Below are positions 3 to 14,501 of a stretch of DNA of 42,153 nt, one piece after another (positions within the stretch are counted from its first letter, which is position 1; each line of letters begins with the position of its first letter). The notes below the pieces were generated by a model that searched no databases, was not told the origin of the DNA, and saw only the letters and a list, made by a program, of their open reading frames with translations. The stretch comes from Clostridia bacterium (GTDB lineage Bacteria > Bacillota > Clostridia > Christensenellales > UBA1242). The position numbers were made by a program, and so were the translations under genes. The stretch lies in the NCBI GenBank assembly GCA_017467895.1, contig JAFUKB010000046.1, positions 1-42,153 on the forward strand, given 5' to 3'.

Positions 3-3000
3 TATTTGTCATTTGATGTTAACGGCTTGGCAACTTTAAAGTTGGTTGATTCAAATTATAATCGTTTTTCAGTATACAAGGGTGCAACTCTTGATTCAAC
101 TTATGAGGGTTCTTATAAGTTTGAAATTATAAAAATTGCAAAAAACACTAATGGTGTATGGACTTTTGTAGATAGCAATAAATTAGTTAATTATGCTCAT
201 TTTGAAGACGGATCGTTGCTTGCAACAAATGGTATTTTAACAATTTCTAACACATTTAGTGATGGTGGTGTTCTTGGCAGTGCATTTAGAATAAAACTTA
301 AAGTAACAACCATGGGTGGTGCAGTAAGTTATTATTATGTTTCTGTTGGCGAACAAGTTCCTTTAACATTAATGCGTCAAAAAGGCTCAACTAACGTTTC
401 TGTTGGTACAACCGATTCAATAAGCGTATCGGCAAGCAAACATATTTTAATTGGTAGTGCAAACGGTGAGGGCTATTCATATGATGATGTTAACCCTGAA
501 GTTTATTATTATATTTCAAATACTGCATATAACAAAGAATTAAAATTTAGATTGTTTGACTCAAACAAAAACATTATTCCTGACGACCAAGTTGAAAGGT
601 ATGTAACAGTTGACAAAAATAAATTGACTATTGCCGTTCAACCAATGGGGATTAATTTTGTACTTCAAATATATACCTCATATGGAGTACTCTCAACAAT
701 AAATGTAACTGTTGAACCATCTATTTCAATTAACTTAACTTCTTCAACCATTTATTCTGGCTCTAGTTATGCTTACGCAGATATTATTAGCATTACAAAT
801 GGTGCAGGGGTAGGGACAGTAAGTTTTGTTAATGTTGAAAGTGCAACCACAAGCATATATTTCTCTTGCGAAGATGGATCAATTAACTTTATTGATATAC
901 CTGCAGGTGAAAGCAAAGTCTTTGATATGCATTTGCGCATATATGTTAAAATTGACGGAAAAGATTTTGATTTTGAACATACATTTAGTTCGGTAACATT
1001 AACCCCTAGAGTTGTTGCAAAGGTCTTTGGAGATGGCTTCTATAGAGATGAAACATCTAGTCAGTTAACAACATATACCGAAGATAGCGGAATGATTGAA
1101 CTAAGTAACCAAATTTGGAAAAACATGTTCATAGATTTAAAGGCTGGCACTGACTTGGCTGTTGAAAATGAATCTAACTTAGATTTCTATATTGATGGAG
1201 TTAAGGTAACGGAAAATGTTACTTCAAGCACAATTACATGGACCATTGCAAATGTTTTAACCGATGACGATGTTCGTAATTGGACATTTACAATAAAAAG
1301 CAAAAAAACCGATGAAGTTATTGCTTCGGCATATGCAAAAATTACAATTAAACCACAATATGATATTGTGTTAAAATATCCTGCTGTTGTTGACATGGTT
1401 GGAGATAGCGTTGTTGGGCTTACTGCAGAATATGTTCAAAACGGTTCATCAATAACATTTAGTGCTCCAAACTTCTCAAATACAGAAGCAAGGATTTCAG
1501 TATTCAAATCAAATTCAGGAACTTATGACATATTTGACGGCTTTGATATTGTTTATGAAGGCGCAGATGGCGTTTATGGTTCAAAAGTTACTGGCGACAA
1601 ATCAAGTGGCTTTACATTCAATTTTGAAGCAAGCGACTTTAGCAACAAAACAGAGATAGAGTGTAAGTTTAATGTGTTAATTGGAGATGGCGTAAATGCT
1701 AAAACATACGCAACATATATTGTAAAAGTATTAAAAGACTCTCCATTTACTCTAGATGCTGATTATTTAGATACCATATATTATGGTTATGGCAGTGAAG
1801 ATGCTGAATTATTTAAAACTGTCGATGTTATTGTTACGCTTCCAACTATTGCAACATTTGCAACTGGTCAAAAGATTGATTTGTATACAATGGTTAATGA
1901 TACAAAAACTAATATCGCAACTGAAGTATACTATAAGGCTGGCGATAAAATTCATGGGTTATTAAATGTAATCGCTTATTCAACAGATCTTAAAGTTTAT
2001 ATTTGCGAGGCTGGTGCAGGCGCTCCAGACACAGATATGTCTTGCGACTCAGTTGAGTTTAATGTTAGAGCAACATTAAAATATCATGGCTATCAGGTTC
2101 AATATAAAGATTATGCAAACATCATGGGCGATGCAGAATCGGCAGAAATTGCAAACTTAAACAATGTTCAAACATATTCTGTTAGTGTTGCGAAAAATAG
2201 TTCATTATCTATTGTAAGCAGTGAATATGTTGTTAGCGGTGTTTATGTTGATTTCACTTTTGATATAAACATTGATGATGACTATGCAACAAAAGAAACA
2301 GCGCTTGTATTAAATGCAAATCAAAACGAATATGGTCAATCATTTGTAAATTTATTTAATGTTACAGATTCGTTGGGAAATATGTTCTGGTATAACCAAT
2401 TAGGTGGAACAAGAAATACTTCGCTTTTAGTTAATGATATTGATGGCGCAATAGAATGTTTGCCTGTTTATCCACAAACAATAGAAGAAACCACATATAA
2501 GTATGATTATCTTCTTAAACCTTTGGGTGCAAAAAATAATGGCACTTATTGTGAGTTGACATTTACTTATACTTTTGAAAGTCTTGTATATACAAAAGTA
2601 TTATTTGTAAAAGTTGTGTCTGATATTGAGTTTGAAATTTATAATAATGATGGAACAACAACACCAAACAGTTCAACAAACCCATTAAAAATTGACGCAG
2701 GTTCAGAAGATATTTCATTCGTAAGTTTGGCACAAACAAAATATATTTACGCATATAGCAAATATTCTTCAGAGAAACCAAATGTGGCACAGTTGTTTAC
2801 TTACACTGTTCAAAAATTAACCGAAAGTGCAACAGATTTTATTACAGTTAAAAAACTTTCTAATCCTACAGCACTTATGTTAGATATAACTCCGGGGGCA
2901 TCGTTTGGTAACAAAACTATTGAACTTGTGTTAAAAGACATGTATGGTTTTGAAATACATTATTACATTGAACTTATTGCAGATATTAATGTAACCTCTA

Positions 3001-6000
3001 TTACAACAGTTGCTGGTAAGGTTTTTGAAGGTGATTCAATTAGCGTATATAATAAAAATGTTGCTGGTGCAAGTGGTACAAGTGGTTCGGTTGCATTAAC
3101 ATTAAACAATGGTGTAGATAAAGACACGGTTACCGAAATTGAAATTTTGCAAGCAACATTCTGGTTTAATGGTTCAACAAAATATTCTGCTAATGTAATT
3201 AATGGCATAATTGAAAATAATACAAAAGTATCATTCAATTTCTTGTCTTATGCAGATATTTGGGATACTACAAAGGGCTTAACTAATGGGGCAAGTTTTG
3301 TAGGAACACTCAATTTTGTAATTGTTAAAGCAGATCCTTTAATTCCTATAGCAAGCAGAGAAAAATATAGTTTTGAAGTTGGCTTTACACTTTATAAAAA
3401 ATATTCATTTGGTTTGCTTGCAGAAAACACCTTTGTTCGAGAAGATGTTGATATTGATTTAACCCACTTTGTCGATGTTTATGACTATAAGCAAGAAAAC
3501 TATTTGGGTAAACCAGTTCTTAGCAAAAATGAAGAAATTAAAGCATCGCTTTATTTGAACCAATCAGGGGATACAAAACAAGCAGGAACTACAACAGATT
3601 TACTTTCAAACGAAAACACTTTGTTGTATACCTATATTACAAGTCAACTTGCAACAATTAATGCTGCAACAAGCAAAGATTCGGTTGAATTGGCTTGGCA
3701 AAACCTTGCAGGTTGGGGAATTCAAGAAGAGTTTTCAAGTCAAGGATGTCCAGTTATTGCAGATGAAGTAGCATATGAAACAGGCTTGTATTCATCTTAT
3801 TTGATTAAACAAGACAATGAACTTTACACATACGCAGATAACGATCAAAACGGCACATATGAGTTGACAAAAGTGTCAGAAATTGTAAAAGAGGCTGGCG
3901 AAGAATATGTATATGTAAAAGATCAAAGAGGTGTCAAGGTTTATGCATATGTTGTTGCAAATGAAGCAGCGTATGAAACAGGCTTGTATTCATCTTACTT
4001 GATTAAACAAGACAATGAACTTTACACATACGCAGATAACGATCAAAACGGCACTTATGAGTTAACAAAAGTATCAGAAATTGTTAAAGAGGCTGACGAA
4101 AAATATGTATATGTAAAAGATCAAAGAGGAGAAAAGATTTATATTACAACCCATAGTGTTGATAATCTAGGCATGTTCTTAAGAATTAGGGCAACACATA
4201 AAACTAATGGCTCTACAGTAGAACGAGAATCATATCAATTAATAAATAAAACTGATGCTGGTGTTTATTACATAGAATATCGTGAACCTTTGGGTAACGA
4301 TTCGTCAACATTTGGCGCAAATATAACTACTCAAGATTATTATTTTGATATTTACCTTTGCAGTATTGGTGAGACTATTCAAAACAAAAAGAAAATTGCA
4401 ACAACAAAAGAGAGCGAACAAGGCTCGGCAAATGCTGTTGCTAATCAAATATTAACACCAATTACTTCAGGAAGTTTGTATACAGTTGAAATTACAAATA
4501 GTCAAAAATTGGTAGATAATGTAAACCTTGCATTCTGCTTAAACGAAAACACTGATGTGGTATATGTAATTAATAATTATAGAACATTGGGACAAGATGC
4601 CTCAATATCTCCAATAACTGCTGGATATAATGTATTTAATTTGTATGACGGCGAATATCAAAACGCTAAAAAATTTACAAAACAAGCAACAGATTGGACG
4701 GAAGAGTCAATTAACGAAATTACATTTGAAGGGCAAACAATTAGCCTGTTTACTGGAAAAATAAGAACAACTGAGTATGTTAATGGCTTATCAACCGCCG
4801 ACTCACAAAAAGCAAAAAATATTCTTTCTGCAAGTTATATGGAAGAAGGCGAAACTGTTGAGGGCTTAACATATAAAGGTTCTTTGTCTGGCAATGTATT
4901 TAGTTATGATGATGATTATGGCATATATTATCAAACAAGAACAATTTCTTCAGTTAATGTGTTGTATTATGAATATGGTTCGGTGGATGCTCCTGTTCAA
5001 GCCAACGCATTTGAAGCAAAGGATTTGCTCGTAAATGTTACATTAAAATATACGGGAGTTGACACTGATAACGCATATGTTGGTTCAACAATGCATTATG
5101 TGTATGTAAAAGGTTTAATTGTTAATGAAACCACAGGCGAGTTAGATAGCGATCTTAACATAAACTTTGCTCCATCTGGCAGTGATCCATATTGGGCTGA
5201 AGGATTTGCCTTAAAAACTGGCGTAGGTGTTGCAAATGTTTTGGCTGGGTTTGAAAATAAAGAATTTATCGGAAGCAACAAAGTTGATGGTATAGAAGAT
5301 CCAGTAGAAAACCGCTTAAGTTTGGCTTTTGAAGCGGGCGAAGTGAAAGGAGCGACTACAACTTCGGCAGCGTCACTGTTTGCTGTTGATGCAACAACTG
5401 GTAATGTCACATTGAAACAAGGATTTATTCCTAATAGTTATTATATTTCAGTTATTATTAAGGCTAGATATAATGGAACAGATAGCAGAGCAATAGGCAC
5501 AGTTTACTTGTCGTTTGTTGCTGTTGATGATATTGATATCTACAATATTGGTTCTAAACAATGGAAACTAAATATTACTGATTATGTTGGGACACAAGCA
5601 GAGGAAGACATAACTCTTGAAGCAGTTAAACTTGAGGGAGCAATAACTCAGTATGTCTATAAAGACGGAACAGACTGGTATGCAATTTTTGATAACTCAA
5701 ATGAGTCAATTAAAACTGGCAGAAGTCTGCTAAGTGTAGGAACGGTAAGCAAATATGTTTACTTAAATGTTCATGAAATTGCATTAAAAAATAATGCAAC
5801 AGTATTGAATATTTATAAGATAAATGGTTCAACTTATGCTATAAACGGTAACGATTTGCTCGTAACTCAAGAGGGTGTGCTTACGAAGTTGGCAGGAAGC
5901 GGATTTAGCGGAATCCTTACGCTTAATACGGTTCCATCAGATGCAATGCAAGTTCCAAACACAATAGTTTCTGGCAACTTTGTAGAAAATTCATACTTTG

Positions 6001-6392
6001 CATTTAGCACGCTAGATAACTTGGCAACAGGCATTTCAATTACAAATAATTCAACTTATTACATTGGATTAGATGGGGCTTATTGTAAAGTAACAGTTAA
6101 AATTCAAAATATGTTCGCAGATGAGTTAATATTAGATGGAACAGAAATTGATATAACTGGCAAAAATATTTATTTGGCTGATGGCTCTGAGTCGGATATG
6201 TTTACTTTCTTGGATAGTGAGTGCACCGATGCCAAACTTGATGGCCATTCAATAGCATTGTATAATGATGGAACAAAAAGATATATAACTAATTATACTT
6301 ATGAACTTTCTTCTCAATGGGTAGAATTAACATTTGTAGATAAAGACGAAGTTGCACAAACTCTTTTGATTAAAGTGGTAAAAGAGGCATAA
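3..6392 (+). CDS. giant secreted/surface protein, 5' end outside window
   Basis: The frame is open from the window edge, so the first visible TTG is probably not the start. About 2,129 residues are visible, ending at a TAA followed by a strong terminator. The protein is rich in Thr, Ser, Asn, Val and Tyr, low in Cys, and made of many beta-strand-like stretches ending in hydrophobic triplets, as in tandem Ig-like modules of large Firmicutes surface proteins. I cannot assign a named domain. Residues about 1250-1379 of the visible part are two 66-residue near-identical copies. There is no LPxTG motif and no C-terminal membrane segment: the end is polar beta-type sequence. If it is surface-attached, the anchor must lie in the missing N-terminal part or be non-covalent. 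An adhesin or stalk-like role is inference. Confidence 0.8.
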   Translation, partial: YLSFDVNGLATLKLVDSNYNRFSVYKGATLDSTYEGSYKFEIIKIAKNTNGVWTFVDSNKLVNYAHFEDGSLLATNGILTISNTFSDGGVLGSAFRIKLKVTTMGGAVSYYYVSVGEQVPLTLMRQKGSTNVSVGTTDSISVSASKHILIGSANGEGYSYDDVNPEVYYYISNTAYNKELKFRLFDSNKNIIPDDQVERYVTVDKNKLTIAVQPMGINFVLQIYTSYGVLSTINVTVEPSISINLTSSTIYSGSSYAYADIISITNGAGVGTVSFVNVESATTSIYFSCEDGSINFIDIPAGESKVFDMHLRIYVKIDGKDFDFEHTFSSVTLTPRVVAKVFGDGFYRDETSSQLTTYTEDSGMIELSNQIWKNMFIDLKAGTDLAVENESNLDFYIDGVKVTENVTSSTITWTIANVLTDDDVRNWTFTIKSKKTDEVIASAYAKITIKPQYDIVLKYPAVVDMVGDSVVGLTAEYVQNGSSITFSAPNFSNTEARISVFKSNSGTYDIFDGFDIVYEGADGVYGSKVTGDKSSGFTFNFEASDFSNKTEIECKFNVLIGDGVNAKTYATYIVKVLKDSPFTLDADYLDTIYYGYGSEDAELFKTVDVIVTLPTIATFATGQKIDLYTMVNDTKTNIATEVYYKAGDKIHGLLNVIAYSTDLKVYICEAGAGAPDTDMSCDSVEFNVRATLKYHGYQVQYKDYANIMGDAESAEIANLNNVQTYSVSVAKNSSLSIVSSEYVVSGVYVDFTFDINIDDDYATKETALVLNANQNEYGQSFVNLFNVTDSLGNMFWYNQLGGTRNTSLLVNDIDGAIECLPVYPQTIEETTYKYDYLLKPLGAKNNGTYCELTFTYTFESLVYTKVLFVKVVSDIEFEIYNNDGTTTPNSSTNPLKIDAGSEDISFVSLAQTKYIYAYSKYSSEKPNVAQLFTYTVQKLTESATDFITVKKLSNPTALMLDITPGASFGNKTIELVLKDMYGFEIHYYIELIADINVTSITTVAGKVFEGDSISVYNKNVAGASGTSGSVALTLNNGVDKDTVTEIEILQATFWFNGSTKYSANVINGIIENNTKVSFNFLSYADIWDTTKGLTNGASFVGTLNFVIVKADPLIPIASREKYSFEVGFTLYKKYSFGLLAENTFVREDVDIDLTHFVDVYDYKQENYLGKPVLSKNEEIKASLYLNQSGDTKQAGTTTDLLSNENTLLYTYITSQLATINAATSKDSVELAWQNLAGWGIQEEFSSQGCPVIADEVAYETGLYSSYLIKQDNELYTYADNDQNGTYELTKVSEIVKEAGEEYVYVKDQRGVKVYAYVVANEAAYETGLYSSYLIKQDNELYTYADNDQNGTYELTKVSEIVKEADEKYVYVKDQRGEKIYITTHSVDNLGMFLRIRATHKTNGSTVERESYQLINKTDAGVYYIEYREPLGNDSSTFGANITTQDYYFDIYLCSIGETIQNKKKIATTKESEQGSANAVANQILTPITSGSLYTVEITNSQKLVDNVNLAFCLNENTDVVYVINNYRTLGQDASISPITAGYNVFNLYDGEYQNAKKFTKQATDWTEESINEITFEGQTISLFTGKIRTTEYVNGLSTADSQKAKNILSASYMEEGETVEGLTYKGSLSGNVFSYDDDYGIYYQTRTISSVNVLYYEYGSVDAPVQANAFEAKDLLVNVTLKYTGVDTDNAYVGSTMHYVYVKGLIVNETTGELDSDLNINFAPSGSDPYWAEGFALKTGVGVANVLAGFENKEFIGSNKVDGIEDPVENRLSLAFEAGEVKGATTTSAASLFAVDATTGNVTLKQGFIPNSYYISVIIKARYNGTDSRAIGTVYLSFVAVDDIDIYNIGSKQWKLNITDYVGTQAEEDITLEAVKLEGAITQYVYKDGTDWYAIFDNSNESIKTGRSLLSVGTVSKYVYLNVHEIALKNNATVLNIYKINGSTYAINGNDLLVTQEGVLTKLAGSGFSGILTLNTVPSDAMQVPNTIVSGNFVENSYFAFSTLDNLATGISITNNSTYYIGLDGAYCKVTVKIQNMFADELILDGTEIDITGKNIYLADGSESDMFTFLDSECTDAKLDGHSIALYNDGTKRYITNYTYELSSQWVELTFVDKDEVAQTLLIKVVKEA
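3753..4142 (+). repeat. in-frame tandem duplication of 198 bp inside the giant gene
   Basis: Copy 1 runs 3753-3950 and copy 2 runs 3951 to about 4142, with an exact offset of 198 bp (66 codons). The copies differ at only a few bases, several of them synonymous, so the duplication is recent. Each unit contains ETGLYSSYLIKQDNELYTY and ends near YVYVKDQRG. It preserves the frame, as expected for modular surface proteins that vary in length by slippage or recombination. Confidence 0.95.
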
Positions 6393-10272: not shown

Positions 10273-10301
10273 TTGACAAATGTGTAAAAATTACACATAA
10301 T
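10273..10301 (+). promoter_or_regulatory. promoter of the NrtR-like regulator gene
   Basis: TTGACA at 10273-10278, a 17-bp spacer, CATAAT at 10296-10301. The palindromic operator at 10280-10298 fills the spacer and overlaps the -10 box, so a bound repressor would block polymerase. Confidence 0.75.
10280..10298. promoter_or_regulatory. palindromic operator, copy 1
   Basis: ATGTGTAAAAATTACACAT has perfect 8-bp arms around 3 bases. The same arms recur at 11059-11077 before the next operon. It lies inside the promoter of the Nudix/winged-helix regulator, as expected for negative autoregulation. Confidence 0.8.
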
Positions 10302-11058: not shown

Positions 11059-11077
11059 ATGTGTAAATTTTACACAT
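11059..11077. promoter_or_regulatory. palindromic operator, copy 2
   Basis: ATGTGTAAATTTTACACAT, extendable to 9-bp arms (AATGTGTAA/TTACACATT). It has the same arms and 3-base centre as the copy at 10280. It lies 31 bp before the start of the first operon gene. I see no clear -35/-10 pair here, so its exact relation to the promoter is open. Confidence 0.8.
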
Positions 11078-11107: not shown

Positions 11108-11683
11108 ATGAAAAAGTCCATTGTTATTAATTTAATGGGAGGTCCGGGGGCGGGCAAAAGCACCATGGCAAGCATGTTGTTTGCAAAGTTAAAAATGCAG
11201 GGAGTGCTATGTGAATATGTAACCGAATATGCAAAAGATATGGTGTGGGAGAATAGATATAATATTTTAAATGACCAACTGTATATTTTAGCCAAGCAGT
11301 TTAGAAGGCTGAATAGAATTAACGGGGAAGTTGATGTAATTATAACTGATAGCCCGCTGTTGGCCAGTTTGTATTATAACTCTGCAATTCAAAATCCAAC
11401 CGACCGCCTTAACGAGGAAACATTAAAAAACTTAATTTTAGAACTCAATGCAAAATTTAATAATATTTATTTCTTTGTTGAGCGCAGGCATAAATATGAA
11501 CAGCAGGGAAGATATCAAACAGAAAGTGAAAGCATACAAGTTGCTAAAAAAATTAGAAGCATGCTAGACGGGTTAGGAATTAACTACAAAGTTCTTCCAA
11601 GCGGAGAACCAAGCGTAGATTATATTGTTAATGAGATAAAAGGATTATTAAATGATAAACAAGATATGCTTCATCGCTCCTAG
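11108..11683 (+). CDS. P-loop NTPase, NadR/AAA_28-type nucleoside kinase-like
   Basis: 191 residues behind an AAAGGAGG site. The Walker A motif GGPGAGKS lies at residues 12-19, followed by an EYAKDMVWE-type segment, a Walker B-like VIITDSPLL and an ERR lid-like stretch. This pattern resembles the AAA_28 group that includes the ribosylnicotinamide kinase domain of NadR. A role in nucleoside or NAD-precursor phosphorylation fits the upstream NrtR-like operator, but the substrate cannot be read from sequence. It is the first gene of the operon and overlaps the next gene by 32 bases. Confidence 0.75.
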   Translation: MKKSIVINLMGGPGAGKSTMASMLFAKLKMQGVLCEYVTEYAKDMVWENRYNILNDQLYILAKQFRRLNRINGEVDVIITDSPLLASLYYNSAIQNPTDRLNEETLKNLILELNAKFNNIYFFVERRHKYEQQGRYQTESESIQVAKKIRSMLDGLGINYKVLPSGEPSVDYIVNEIKGLLNDKQDMLHRS

Positions 11684-12167: not shown

Positions 12168-12878
12168 ATGGAAAATAAATTAATTTTTAATAGAGTTTTA
12201 GGTTTAAAATTTTTATATGATAATTTTAAATATTATTATAATGATGAAAGAATAAAATTATATTTTGCAAATTCTAAAGATGAATTAATAAATTTAAAAA
12301 TTGCAGATAATTATTTCAATACCTTTGTTTTAAAGCGATGTGGAGATATTAATAAAATATATATTAGCGATATTAAATGCAAGGATAATAGATTTTTTAA
12401 TAATTTTAGTGAATTAAAAAATGGAATAAAAGAATTTAATGATAATTTTATTTTTTGTGTAGAATGCCATAAATTTAAGCATAATGAAAATTATTATAGT
12501 GATAGATTGGCTATTGCACAGTTTAGTACACAAATGGTTTTTGATGGCTGTGATATGTTGAGTTTTATTCCATCAATAGTTCCGGGAGTTTCTACAAGAG
12601 ATAATTCACCATACTTAATTTTATCCTATCCATATAATTCTGGAACAACATTTCATGTTAAATTTTCTCAAAAAGACCAAATAAAAAGCAACAACTTTTC
12701 TGATTATGATATTGCATACTTGGCAACTAAAATTCATGATATGATTTCTAACATTCGTGAATATCTTATTGAGTTAAATTGTCGCGATACTTTTCAGTTA
12801 ATTATTAGAATTGATTCATACTTAAATTTGTTACCAATAGATTTTAGAACAACAAGTGCATGGAAACAAATTAGATAA
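12168..12878 (+). CDS. unknown protein of the nucleotide operon
   Basis: 236 residues, starting 3 bases after the previous stop with only a weak ribosome-binding site, which suggests coupling. The first 150 codons are more AT-rich (runs of Asn, Lys, Tyr, Ile) than neighbouring genes. No signal peptide or membrane helix is visible. The middle has a conserved-looking FCVECHKFKHNENYY segment with a C-x-x-C-H cluster, and later PYLILSYPYNSGTTFHVKFS. I recognise no family. Its fixed place between kinases and dCTP-deaminase paralogues suggests it works on the same nucleotides. Confidence 0.7.
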   Translation: MENKLIFNRVLGLKFLYDNFKYYYNDERIKLYFANSKDELINLKIADNYFNTFVLKRCGDINKIYISDIKCKDNRFFNNFSELKNGIKEFNDNFIFCVECHKFKHNENYYSDRLAIAQFSTQMVFDGCDMLSFIPSIVPGVSTRDNSPYLILSYPYNSGTTFHVKFSQKDQIKSNNFSDYDIAYLATKIHDMISNIREYLIELNCRDTFQLIIRIDSYLNLLPIDFRTTSAWKQIR

Positions 12879-12892
12879 ATGGAGCACACAAA

Positions 12893-13411
12893 ATGATTTT
12901 AACCAAACATGAAATAAAAAAACAAGTTCAAAAAAATAGTATTCAAATTTTTCCATTTGAAGAAAGCATGCTTAATCCTAATAGTTATAACTATAGGTTA
13001 GATTATACTATTTTAGAAATTGAAAACAATATTGATGCGAAACAACCTTGCAAATTTAGAGTTATAACGCTTGATGATAACGGATATGTTTTGCAACCAA
13101 ACAAACTTTATTTGGCAAATACCTATGAGCAAATAGGTAGCAGTAAATTTGTAACTCAATTAATTGGAAGAAGTTCGGTAGGCAGACTTGGTTTGTTTTT
13201 GCAAATAACTGCTCCTCTTGGTCATGTTGGTACAAATCATAAATGGACATTAGAGTTAAATGTTGTGCAACCGTTAAAGATTTATCCCCTAATGAAAATA
13301 GGGCAAGTTACATTTTGGAGAACAAAAGGTAGAAAAACTTTAACATATTGCATGGGCGAATATAAAAAATATCAAACACCGCAAATAAGCAAGTTTTATA
13401 AGGAGTTATAA
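12893..13411 (+). CDS. dcd: dCTP deaminase paralogue A (keeps Glu, lost D-x-G-F-x-G)
   Basis: 172 residues, close to the usual length. NPNSYNYRL near residues 28-36 and GRSSVGRLGLF at 92-102 match the Dcd/dUTPase fold, including the Ser and Arg of the active site. The catalytic Glu is kept in WTLEL (E121), but the preceding loop, normally D-V/P-G-F-x-G, reads GHVGTNHK, and the usual HVTAG is QITAP. Normal reaction: dCTP to dUTP. The C-terminal GKYQ-Q-G tail is also degenerate. It is directly coupled to paralogue B (stop and start share one base), so a mixed trimer is plausible. Confidence 0.82.
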   Translation: MILTKHEIKKQVQKNSIQIFPFEESMLNPNSYNYRLDYTILEIENNIDAKQPCKFRVITLDDNGYVLQPNKLYLANTYEQIGSSKFVTQLIGRSSVGRLGLFLQITAPLGHVGTNHKWTLELNVVQPLKIYPLMKIGQVTFWRTKGRKTLTYCMGEYKKYQTPQISKFYKEL

Positions 13412-13944
13412 TGATTTTAACTGGAAATCAAATTGCCAAACAAGTTAAAAATGGCAAAATAACAATTTCGCCATTTGAAAACTCACAAGTAAATCCAAAT
13501 AGTTATAATGTTGAACTGGGCGATTATTTAAAGGTGTATTGCGATGATGTGTTAGACAGCAAAAAGCCATTAAAGACTAAAATCATTCAAATCCCAGATG
13601 ATGGCATTGTGTTACAACCAAATAAGATATATTTGGGATTTACAAAAGAGGTTGTAGGTAGTAATTATTTTGTTCCAACATTAACCGGCAGAAGTTCAAG
13701 TGGCAGGTTGGGGCTGTTTGTACAAATTACCGCCGATTTGGTTGATATTGGGTTTAAAGGAAATTTGACTTTTCAACTTCATGCAGTTCAACCATTAAAA
13801 ATATATAAGGGTATGAAAATTGGTCAAGTTATGTTTTGGAAACCAATGGGAAAAATTAAACTATATGATGGGAAGTATCAAAACAGTAAAGGTCCACAAG
13901 AAAGCAAAGTGTGGCAAGATTTTAAAAAGGGAGAATCAAAATGA
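13411..13944 (+). CDS. dcd: dCTP deaminase paralogue B (keeps D-x-G-F-x-G, Glu to Gln)
   Basis: 177 residues and close in sequence to paralogue A (MILT-x-x-x-I-x-K-QV start, NPNSYN, GRSSSGRLGLF). The loop VDIGFKG (111-117) and the C-terminal KYQNSKGPQESKVW are intact. The catalytic Glu is replaced by Gln in LTFQL (Q122), a change that removes deaminase activity in studied Dcd enzymes. With an Asp loop and no Glu it somewhat resembles dUTPases. Its stop overlaps the histidine phosphatase start by 4 bases. Confidence 0.82.
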   Translation: MILTGNQIAKQVKNGKITISPFENSQVNPNSYNVELGDYLKVYCDDVLDSKKPLKTKIIQIPDDGIVLQPNKIYLGFTKEVVGSNYFVPTLTGRSSSGRLGLFVQITADLVDIGFKGNLTFQLHAVQPLKIYKGMKIGQVMFWKPMGKIKLYDGKYQNSKGPQESKVWQDFKKGESK

Positions 13945-14501
13945 TATATTTATTAAGGCACAGCATAGATGATAATACGCGCAAAGGTGGTTGGAGTAGT
14001 GCAGAACTAACAGAAGAAGGTGTTAAACTGGCACAGGAAATAGTAGAAAAATTACACAAATTAAGAATAGACAAAATTGTGTGCAGCGACCTTGTTAGAG
14101 CAAAGCAAACATGCGAAATTATTAATAAAAAATTAAACTTGCCTGTTGTGTTTGTGCAAGATTTAAGAGAATTTAACGCCGGGGTTGTGTCAGGCATGAA
14201 ATATGATGAGGCAGATAGATTATATCCATTGCCTCCACAAGTTCATAAGGATATGAATTTTAAATATCCAAATGGCGAAACTCTGGGCGAATTTAAAAAT
14301 AGGGTTATAGAATTTTATAATAATACTATTAAACCAAGCGATAATGTTTTGTACATAACTCATCGCAATGTAATAAGCGTCATATATAATTATATTAATA
14401 ACTCTGAATGGAATTTTTTAGATAAAAAAATAATAAAAATTCAACATTGCTCGCTTTTTGCAATCAACACTATAAAAGGTCAAATTCATAAAGTTATTTA
14501 A
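13941..14501 (+). CDS. histidine phosphatase (phosphoglycerate mutase-like)
   Basis: 186 residues. The phosphohistidine motif is LLRHSIDD at residues 4-11 (RHS instead of the common RHG), with the second catalytic His in ITHRNVISV and a conserved VCSDLVRAKQT arginine segment. Substrates of this superfamily vary widely. As the last gene of a nucleotide operon, coupled by an ATGA overlap, a nucleotide or sugar-phosphate phosphatase is the best guess. Confidence 0.8.
   Translation: MIYLLRHSIDDNTRKGGWSSAELTEEGVKLAQEIVEKLHKLRIDKIVCSDLVRAKQTCEIINKKLNLPVVFVQDLREFNAGVVSGMKYDEADRLYPLPPQVHKDMNFKYPNGETLGEFKNRVIEFYNNTIKPSDNVLYITHRNVISVIYNYINNSEWNFLDKKIIKIQHCSLFAINTIKGQIHKVI

Follow-up and report, generated by a model that had tools for sequence, protein, structure and literature searches.

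Enzymes of the dUTPase superfamily are textbook homotrimers with active sites at the subunit interfaces. Motif III of each such site comes from one subunit, and motifs I, II, and IV come from the adjacent one (PMC12524310). The closest solved relatives of the two proteins described here are the bifunctional dCTP deaminase-dUTPases of M. jannaschii (1ogh/3gf0), M. tuberculosis (2qxx/4a6a), and B. halodurans (4xjc), homotrimers of a single chain that carries both an Asp and a Glu in motif III. Archaeal dUTPases with the DCD fold (P. furiosus/P45 9ln0, T. pacificus 8y1w, and S. tokodaii 2zdc) keep the Asp and have replaced the Glu. Specifically, 8y1w and 9ln0 read VDPGWDGNLTLML, with Met for the Glu, and 2zdc has Ala. 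To our knowledge, these archaeal proteins stand alone, with no partner like protein A below. One P. furiosus protein annotated as a dCTP deaminase is in fact an efficient dUTPase without deaminase activity (PMC5122711). The two-domain alphaproteobacterial dCTP deaminase (2r9q, Pfam DCD_N) belongs to the same family but has roughly double the length in one covalent chain.

We analyzed a 42,153-nucleotide stretch of DNA (the window), which is host chromosome of a small bacterial genome (871 kb, 48 contigs). Two DCD-family genes, A and B, lie side by side in it (Table 1). The encoded proteins share the fold, motif II, and hairpin layout of the bifunctional enzymes, but the Asp and the Glu are found on two chains, each missing one. 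The monomeric dUTPases of herpesviruses (EBV type) likewise reflect a superfamily duplication followed by unequal motif loss, although there one fused chain contains both copies and only one active site, whereas A and B are separate genes (PMC12524310). No description of such a pair, or of the gene clusters that contain it, was found in the open-licence literature. Close relatives occur in genomes labelled as Clostridia or Bacilli, several of them from gut samples.

Table 1. Genes and palindromes around the DCD gene pair (window coordinates)
Feature	Position	Strand	Details
Palindrome, copy 1	10280..10298	.	ATGTGTAAAAATTACACAT; overlaps the -10 hexamer of a promoter-like site preceding the regulator gene
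NrtR-type regulator (NUDIX domain + winged helix), 225 aa	10318..10995	+	PF21906 1.7e-19, PF00293 5.5e-12; conserved in nine relatives
Palindrome, copy 2	11059..11077	.	ATGTGTAAATTTTACACAT; precedes the kinase-A-B operon
AAA_28 P-loop kinase-like protein, 191 aa, optional member	11108..11683	+	PF13521 4e-15; phrog_2107 thymidylate kinase 2e-22; otherwise in L026 only
P-loop kinase related to dNMP kinases, 170 aa	11652..12164	+	phrog_139 dNMP kinase 7.5e-9; homologs adjoin A-B in other phyla
Conserved 236-aa protein	12168..12878	+	57-61% identical in six relatives
Gene A, DCD family, 172 aa	12893..13411	+	Deaminase-type; E121 kept; GHVGTNH where D-x-G-F-x-G is expected
Gene B, DCD family, 177 aa	13411..13944	+	Hydrolase-type; ATG at 13411; D112 kept; Q122 replaces Glu
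Histidine phosphatase, 186 aa, optional member	13941..14501	+	PF00300 5e-33; 4-base overlap with the end of B; also in L028, L030, L032

Both reading frames are intact and have one base in common, as the initial annotation of this DNA had stated. A profile search placed A (E = 3e-30, 105.7 bits) and B (E = 9e-38, 130.2 bits) in the Pfam DCD family (PF22769), well above its curated cut-off of 27 bits. A weak DCD_N match was also found in B (4.8e-5). The two proteins match DCD families only, and the zinc cytidine-deaminase fold (PF00383) is not matched by either. They are approximately 50% identical to each other. With the NCBIfam model for dCTP deaminase (TIGR02274, equivalog cut-off 92.8 bits), the copy that lacks the catalytic Glu passes (B, 113.5 bits) and the copy that has it fails (A, 84.5 bits). 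AlphaFold models of the A and B monomers, in which the motif III hairpin is of low confidence, have chains of bifunctional dCTP deaminase-dUTPases as their best Foldseek matches (E ~1e-11 to 1e-12).

The initial annotation had also read the two proteins as carrying complementary losses, and the sequences bear this out. The motif III region of A is LQITAPLGHVGTNHKWTLEL, in which the catalytic Glu of dCTP deaminases (E138 in E. coli, E145 in M. jannaschii) is present as E121, and the segment GHVGTNHK, including H111, takes the place of D-x-G-F-x-G. The corresponding region of B is VQITADLVDIGFKGNLTFQL, with VDIGFKG and its Asp (D112) kept and with Q122 for the Glu. Alignment to 1ogh and 3gf0 places E145 at Q122 of B, which supports the assignment of this position; wild-type 1ogh reads TLEI there, and 3gf0, the engineered E145Q variant of the M. 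jannaschii enzyme, reads TLQI. Motif II is kept in both proteins of the window lineage and reads GRSSSGR in B. A further remark, that both proteins have Gln where HVTAG-type enzymes have His, is true of A and B but is not diagnostic, because this position is H or E in other pairs and Gln in the Bacillus halodurans enzyme.

Relatives were then gathered from whole genomes, genome contigs, plasmids, and viral contigs. All 34 distinct A sequences keep the Glu and have lost the Phe, and their Asp position is occupied by His (28 sequences), Asn (5), or Gln (1). Conversely, the Asp is present in 34 of 34 distinct B sequences, and the Glu position holds Gln (24) or Met (10), the latter as in 8y1w and 9ln0 and found in Streptomyces B. 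Two sequences were unmatched, one at a contig end (L039) and the other an identical duplicate (L008). Every A is adjoined by a B except at a contig end, and the pair is spread over Bacillota, Actinomycetota, and Rhizobium plasmids. In no pair does either chain combine the Asp and the Glu of the bifunctional enzymes, and the co-occurrence of the two losses that the initial annotation had anticipated is seen in every intact pair. Reciprocal loss is thus a conserved rule rather than a local oddity or a chance event.

Single-copy relatives (n = 36; 13, 19, and 4 viral sequences from three sets) keep the Asp in 35 cases and the Glu in 35 cases. The initial annotation had expected its proposal to fail if single-copy relatives carried both residues; such relatives do exist, although none belongs to the A or the B clade. 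The exception at the Asp (L043) has Glu there. The exception at the Glu (L015) has Gln there, and its row includes genes that, judged by a look at the sequence, encode thymidylate synthase and dCMP deaminase, a setting in which the DCD protein would not need to deaminate. In a related genome (G090), a single-copy DCD protein at L066 4960-5535 has WTFQL, again beside apparent thymidylate synthase and dCMP deaminase genes, and this Gln-for-Glu protein is likely an independent switch to a dUTPase-only enzyme.

Additional features separate A from B. All 25 A sequences that are not of the Streptomyces chromosomal type have an A-specific His116 (GHxGxxHxWTLE). In that chromosomal lineage itself, motif II is lost in A (GDRTxGA/S) and kept in B (GRSSVGR). 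The canonical KYQ-type C-terminal tail (GKYQ..GPxES) occurs in all B and single-copy sequences and is lost from most A sequences. A natural chimera on an Embleya plasmid (L056 10001-10696), left out of the above counts, joins a complete A core to the C-terminal tail of B, and a further B-type match lies about 10 kb off. A different DCD arrangement (L073 3508-6805, genome G433) consists of a single DCD protein with GEAGF and a distant 266-aa DCD/dUTPase-like protein, together with a radical SAM protein; its AAA_28 kinase shares 33% identity with that of the window.

Phylogenetic analysis places A in one clade spanning Bacillota, Actinomycetota, and Rhizobium (support 95/81), with a single origin in 96% of bootstrap trees, and B in one or two clades. 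The distance matrices of A and B are strongly correlated (r = 0.92 over 33 pairs, a value reached by 0 of 5000 permutations), and this mirror correlation is 0.86-0.87 inside each of three lineages. Values of dN/dS are 0.02-0.19 for A and for B, and both genes are under purifying selection. A precedes B in gut and plasmid loci, and B precedes A in Streptomyces chromosomes. Given the A clade, the mirror correlation, and the low dN/dS, a single, ancient origin of the pair is most likely, after which it has been retained and transferred as a unit. The proposal in the initial annotation that A and B work jointly gains from these data, because co-inheritance, adjacency, and purifying selection argue for joint function. 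A degenerate duplicate was rejected on the basis of dN/dS and of conservation across phyla. Likewise, we rejected a phage origin because the only relatives among viral contigs and phage records are distant and single-copy, and because the window otherwise resembles host chromosome.

The gut genomes have a shared gene order: the NrtR-type regulator, the optional AAA_28 kinase, the dNMP-kinase-like protein, the 236-aa protein, A, B, and the optional histidine phosphatase. Among 297 genomes of the host family, the eight that carry the pair are exactly those with the dNMP-kinase-like gene (Fisher p = 7e-16), and both are missing from the four other members of the genus, whose genomes are 97-100% complete. 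The 236-aa protein has no relative in Pfam, PHROG, NCBIfam, or PDB. Its slot is filled by a radical SAM protein in L029-L032, of which the L029 protein matches viperin models weakly and MoaA better, and by a methyltransferase in L033. The histidine phosphatase scores under all NCBIfam cut-offs, with alpha-ribazole phosphatase as the best model. Elsewhere in the window, an open frame of 2128 aa enters from the window edge (6-6392) and has no Pfam match at E 1e-5.

Outside the gut genomes, the pair sits in other clusters. Actinomycete plasmids carry the kinase, A, B, a cytidine-deaminase-like protein, a SAM methyltransferase, sugar-nucleotide enzymes, a GT4 protein, and a HAD phosphatase, and some add a radical SAM protein. 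Rhizobium plasmids encode the kinase as a fusion with a cytidine-deaminase-like domain, downstream of A, B, and a methyltransferase. Streptomyces chromosomes have a MurA-like enolpyruvyl transferase, a metallophosphoesterase, B, A, a GT4 protein, and a serine hydrolase. Epimerase genes are also among the neighbors of the pair. Homologs of the kinase accompany the pair in Bacillota gut loci and on the actinomycete and Rhizobium plasmids and are absent from the Streptomyces chromosomal clusters and from L050; for one plasmid homolog, no DCD gene is annotated within 6 kb on either side. The recurrence of the pair in small nucleotide-processing clusters of three phyla suggests that the two proteins make up one enzyme of an undescribed nucleotide pathway. 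Genes for peptidase S66 proteins (LD-carboxypeptidase family) lie near the pair in two unrelated cluster types (L033 3601-4653 and L050 22351-23307). Some S66 peptidases are self-immunity enzymes against peptide-nucleotide antibiotics.

The explanation we prefer, to which we assign somewhat less than an even chance, is that a bifunctional deaminase/dUTPase was duplicated and split, leaving a deaminase-type A and a hydrolase-type B that together process a dedicated nucleotide. The duplication, of a (bifunctional) dCTP deaminase-dUTPase, would be ancient, with the chemistry since divided between A and B. A would have kept the deamination center (Glu121) and lost both the Asp that positions the hydrolytic water and the Phe that packs against the sugar, and B would have kept the Asp and lost the deamination Glu. 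An amino-pyrimidine triphosphate would first be converted by A to the oxo-pyrimidine triphosphate, which B would then cleave to the monophosphate and pyrophosphate, and the assembly is probably a mixed A/B trimer. From sequence comparisons, we infer the reaction of each subunit, the heteromer, and a substrate other than plain dCTP. A more specific proposal, which we hold with greater doubt, makes A and B the obligate partners of a heteromeric enzyme, the first in the dCTP deaminase/dUTPase superfamily; its substrate would be a modified nucleotide, and it would belong to an undescribed pathway of nucleotide or nucleoside biosynthesis shared by gut Bacillota, actinomycetes, and rhizobia.

This assignment of roles is preferred because A lacks an Asp whose replacement disables two known dUTPases and because B shares the state of the archaeal dUTPases. 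Changing the motif III Asp to Asn abolishes hydrolysis by human dUTPase (D102N, PMC4827122) and inactivates the M. tuberculosis dUTPase (D83N, PMC5519681), and Asn is exactly the residue found at this position in five A sequences. B has kept the Asp and motif II and lost the deamination Glu, the combination known from archaeal DCD-fold dUTPases (PMC5122711), so that the suggestion in the initial annotation of one dUTPase-like copy is well supported for B. Public records label members of the pair "dCTP deaminase", a name that B probably does not deserve. The strongest sequence argument for a joint complex comes from Streptomyces chromosomes, where A lacks motif II and B has it: the Glu hairpin of A could be completed only by B, and a composite A/B site via motif II of B is suggested. 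The Phe loss and the conserved His116 suggest that the substrate of A is other than plain dCTP. Both the Asp and the Phe have sugar-recognition roles in the family.

Several observations weigh against a split into deaminase-type and hydrolase-type subunits. With the Asp, A may have given up more than hydrolysis: this residue is retained in monofunctional deaminases such as E. coli Dcd, and we know of no deaminase without it. In the window lineage, where motif II is present in both proteins, nothing in the sequence forces a heteromer. The loss of the Phe and, in most A sequences, of the tail would also fit a changed substrate or inactivity, and the hairpin has low confidence in both monomer models. 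Furthermore, the kinase is not constant, given the Streptomyces chromosomal type, L050, and the plasmid homolog noted above.

Some of these observations would be accommodated by a heterotrimer in which only the hairpin sites of A are catalytic and B is a dead activator whose contribution is motif II, the C-terminal tail, or a sensing site. We regard this as unlikely, though worth keeping in view. Motif II persists in B where Streptomyces A has lost it, the tail absent from most A sequences persists in B as well, and DCD sites communicate through a central channel (PMC4827122). By analogy, an impaired or catalytically dead paralog forms one complex with its partner in trypanosomatid deoxyhypusine synthase and in AdoMet decarboxylase/prozyme (PMC3663545, PMC5201418), although these folds are unrelated to DCD. 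However, the Asp, fold, and tail of B are fully conserved, which a working hydrolase fits at least as well, and two subunit types in a trimer would create unequal interfaces.

Less probable again is new chemistry, with A retuned for a sugar-altered modified nucleotide or a ribonucleotide from nucleoside-type clusters; its marks would be the joint loss of Asp and Phe and the gain of a conserved His116 outside the Streptomyces chromosomal type. Clusters that include radical SAM, SAM methyltransferase, GT4, epimerase, and HAD or metallophosphoesterase genes are consistent with such a role, although the operon in the window has no glycosyltransferase. The MurA-like protein of the Streptomyces type may offer a parallel to NikO and PolA, which make 3'-enolpyruvyl-UMP in nikkomycin and polyoxin biosynthesis (PMC5365060).

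Housekeeping dUMP supply and anti-phage nucleotide depletion both agree with family membership, and prokaryotic dCTP deaminases take part in phage defense (cited in PMC12088426), but we consider either role highly improbable. The former was rejected because the four nearly complete congeners lack the pair and genome G000 has a separate dUTPase-like gene, and also cytidine-deaminase-family genes, besides it. The latter was rejected because PADLOC gave no convincing match for A or B, and the neighbors are biosynthetic rather than defensive. Finally, the composite site envisaged in the initial annotation, in which the Glu of A and the Asp of B complete one canonical site of a mixed trimer, fits the reciprocal loss, adjacency, and co-inheritance but is scarcely credible, because each site takes motif III from a single subunit (PMC12524310) and the two residues, ten positions apart on the same hairpin of one chain, cannot meet in one canonical site.

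If the preferred division of a bifunctional enzyme into A and B is correct, an obligate version with two genes would reveal how paralogs can partition a bifunctional site, and the split pair would test directly whether deamination and hydrolysis can run in separate sites of one assembly. The pair is also a useful marker of nucleotide-processing clusters, be they on linear plasmids of actinomycetes, on rhizobial plasmids, in Streptomyces chromosomes, or in gut genomes.

The palindrome ATGTGTAAAWWTTACACAT precedes both the regulator gene and the operon (Table 1). Allowing 3 mismatches, the window contains 5 matches compared to 0.3 expected, and a search of the whole genome (871 kb) with at most 2 mismatches returned these two sites only. 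Forms of the palindrome also precede the regulator gene in L024-L028. From this position and recurrence, we infer that the NrtR-type regulator acts at the palindromes. In L029, another palindrome is present at both places.
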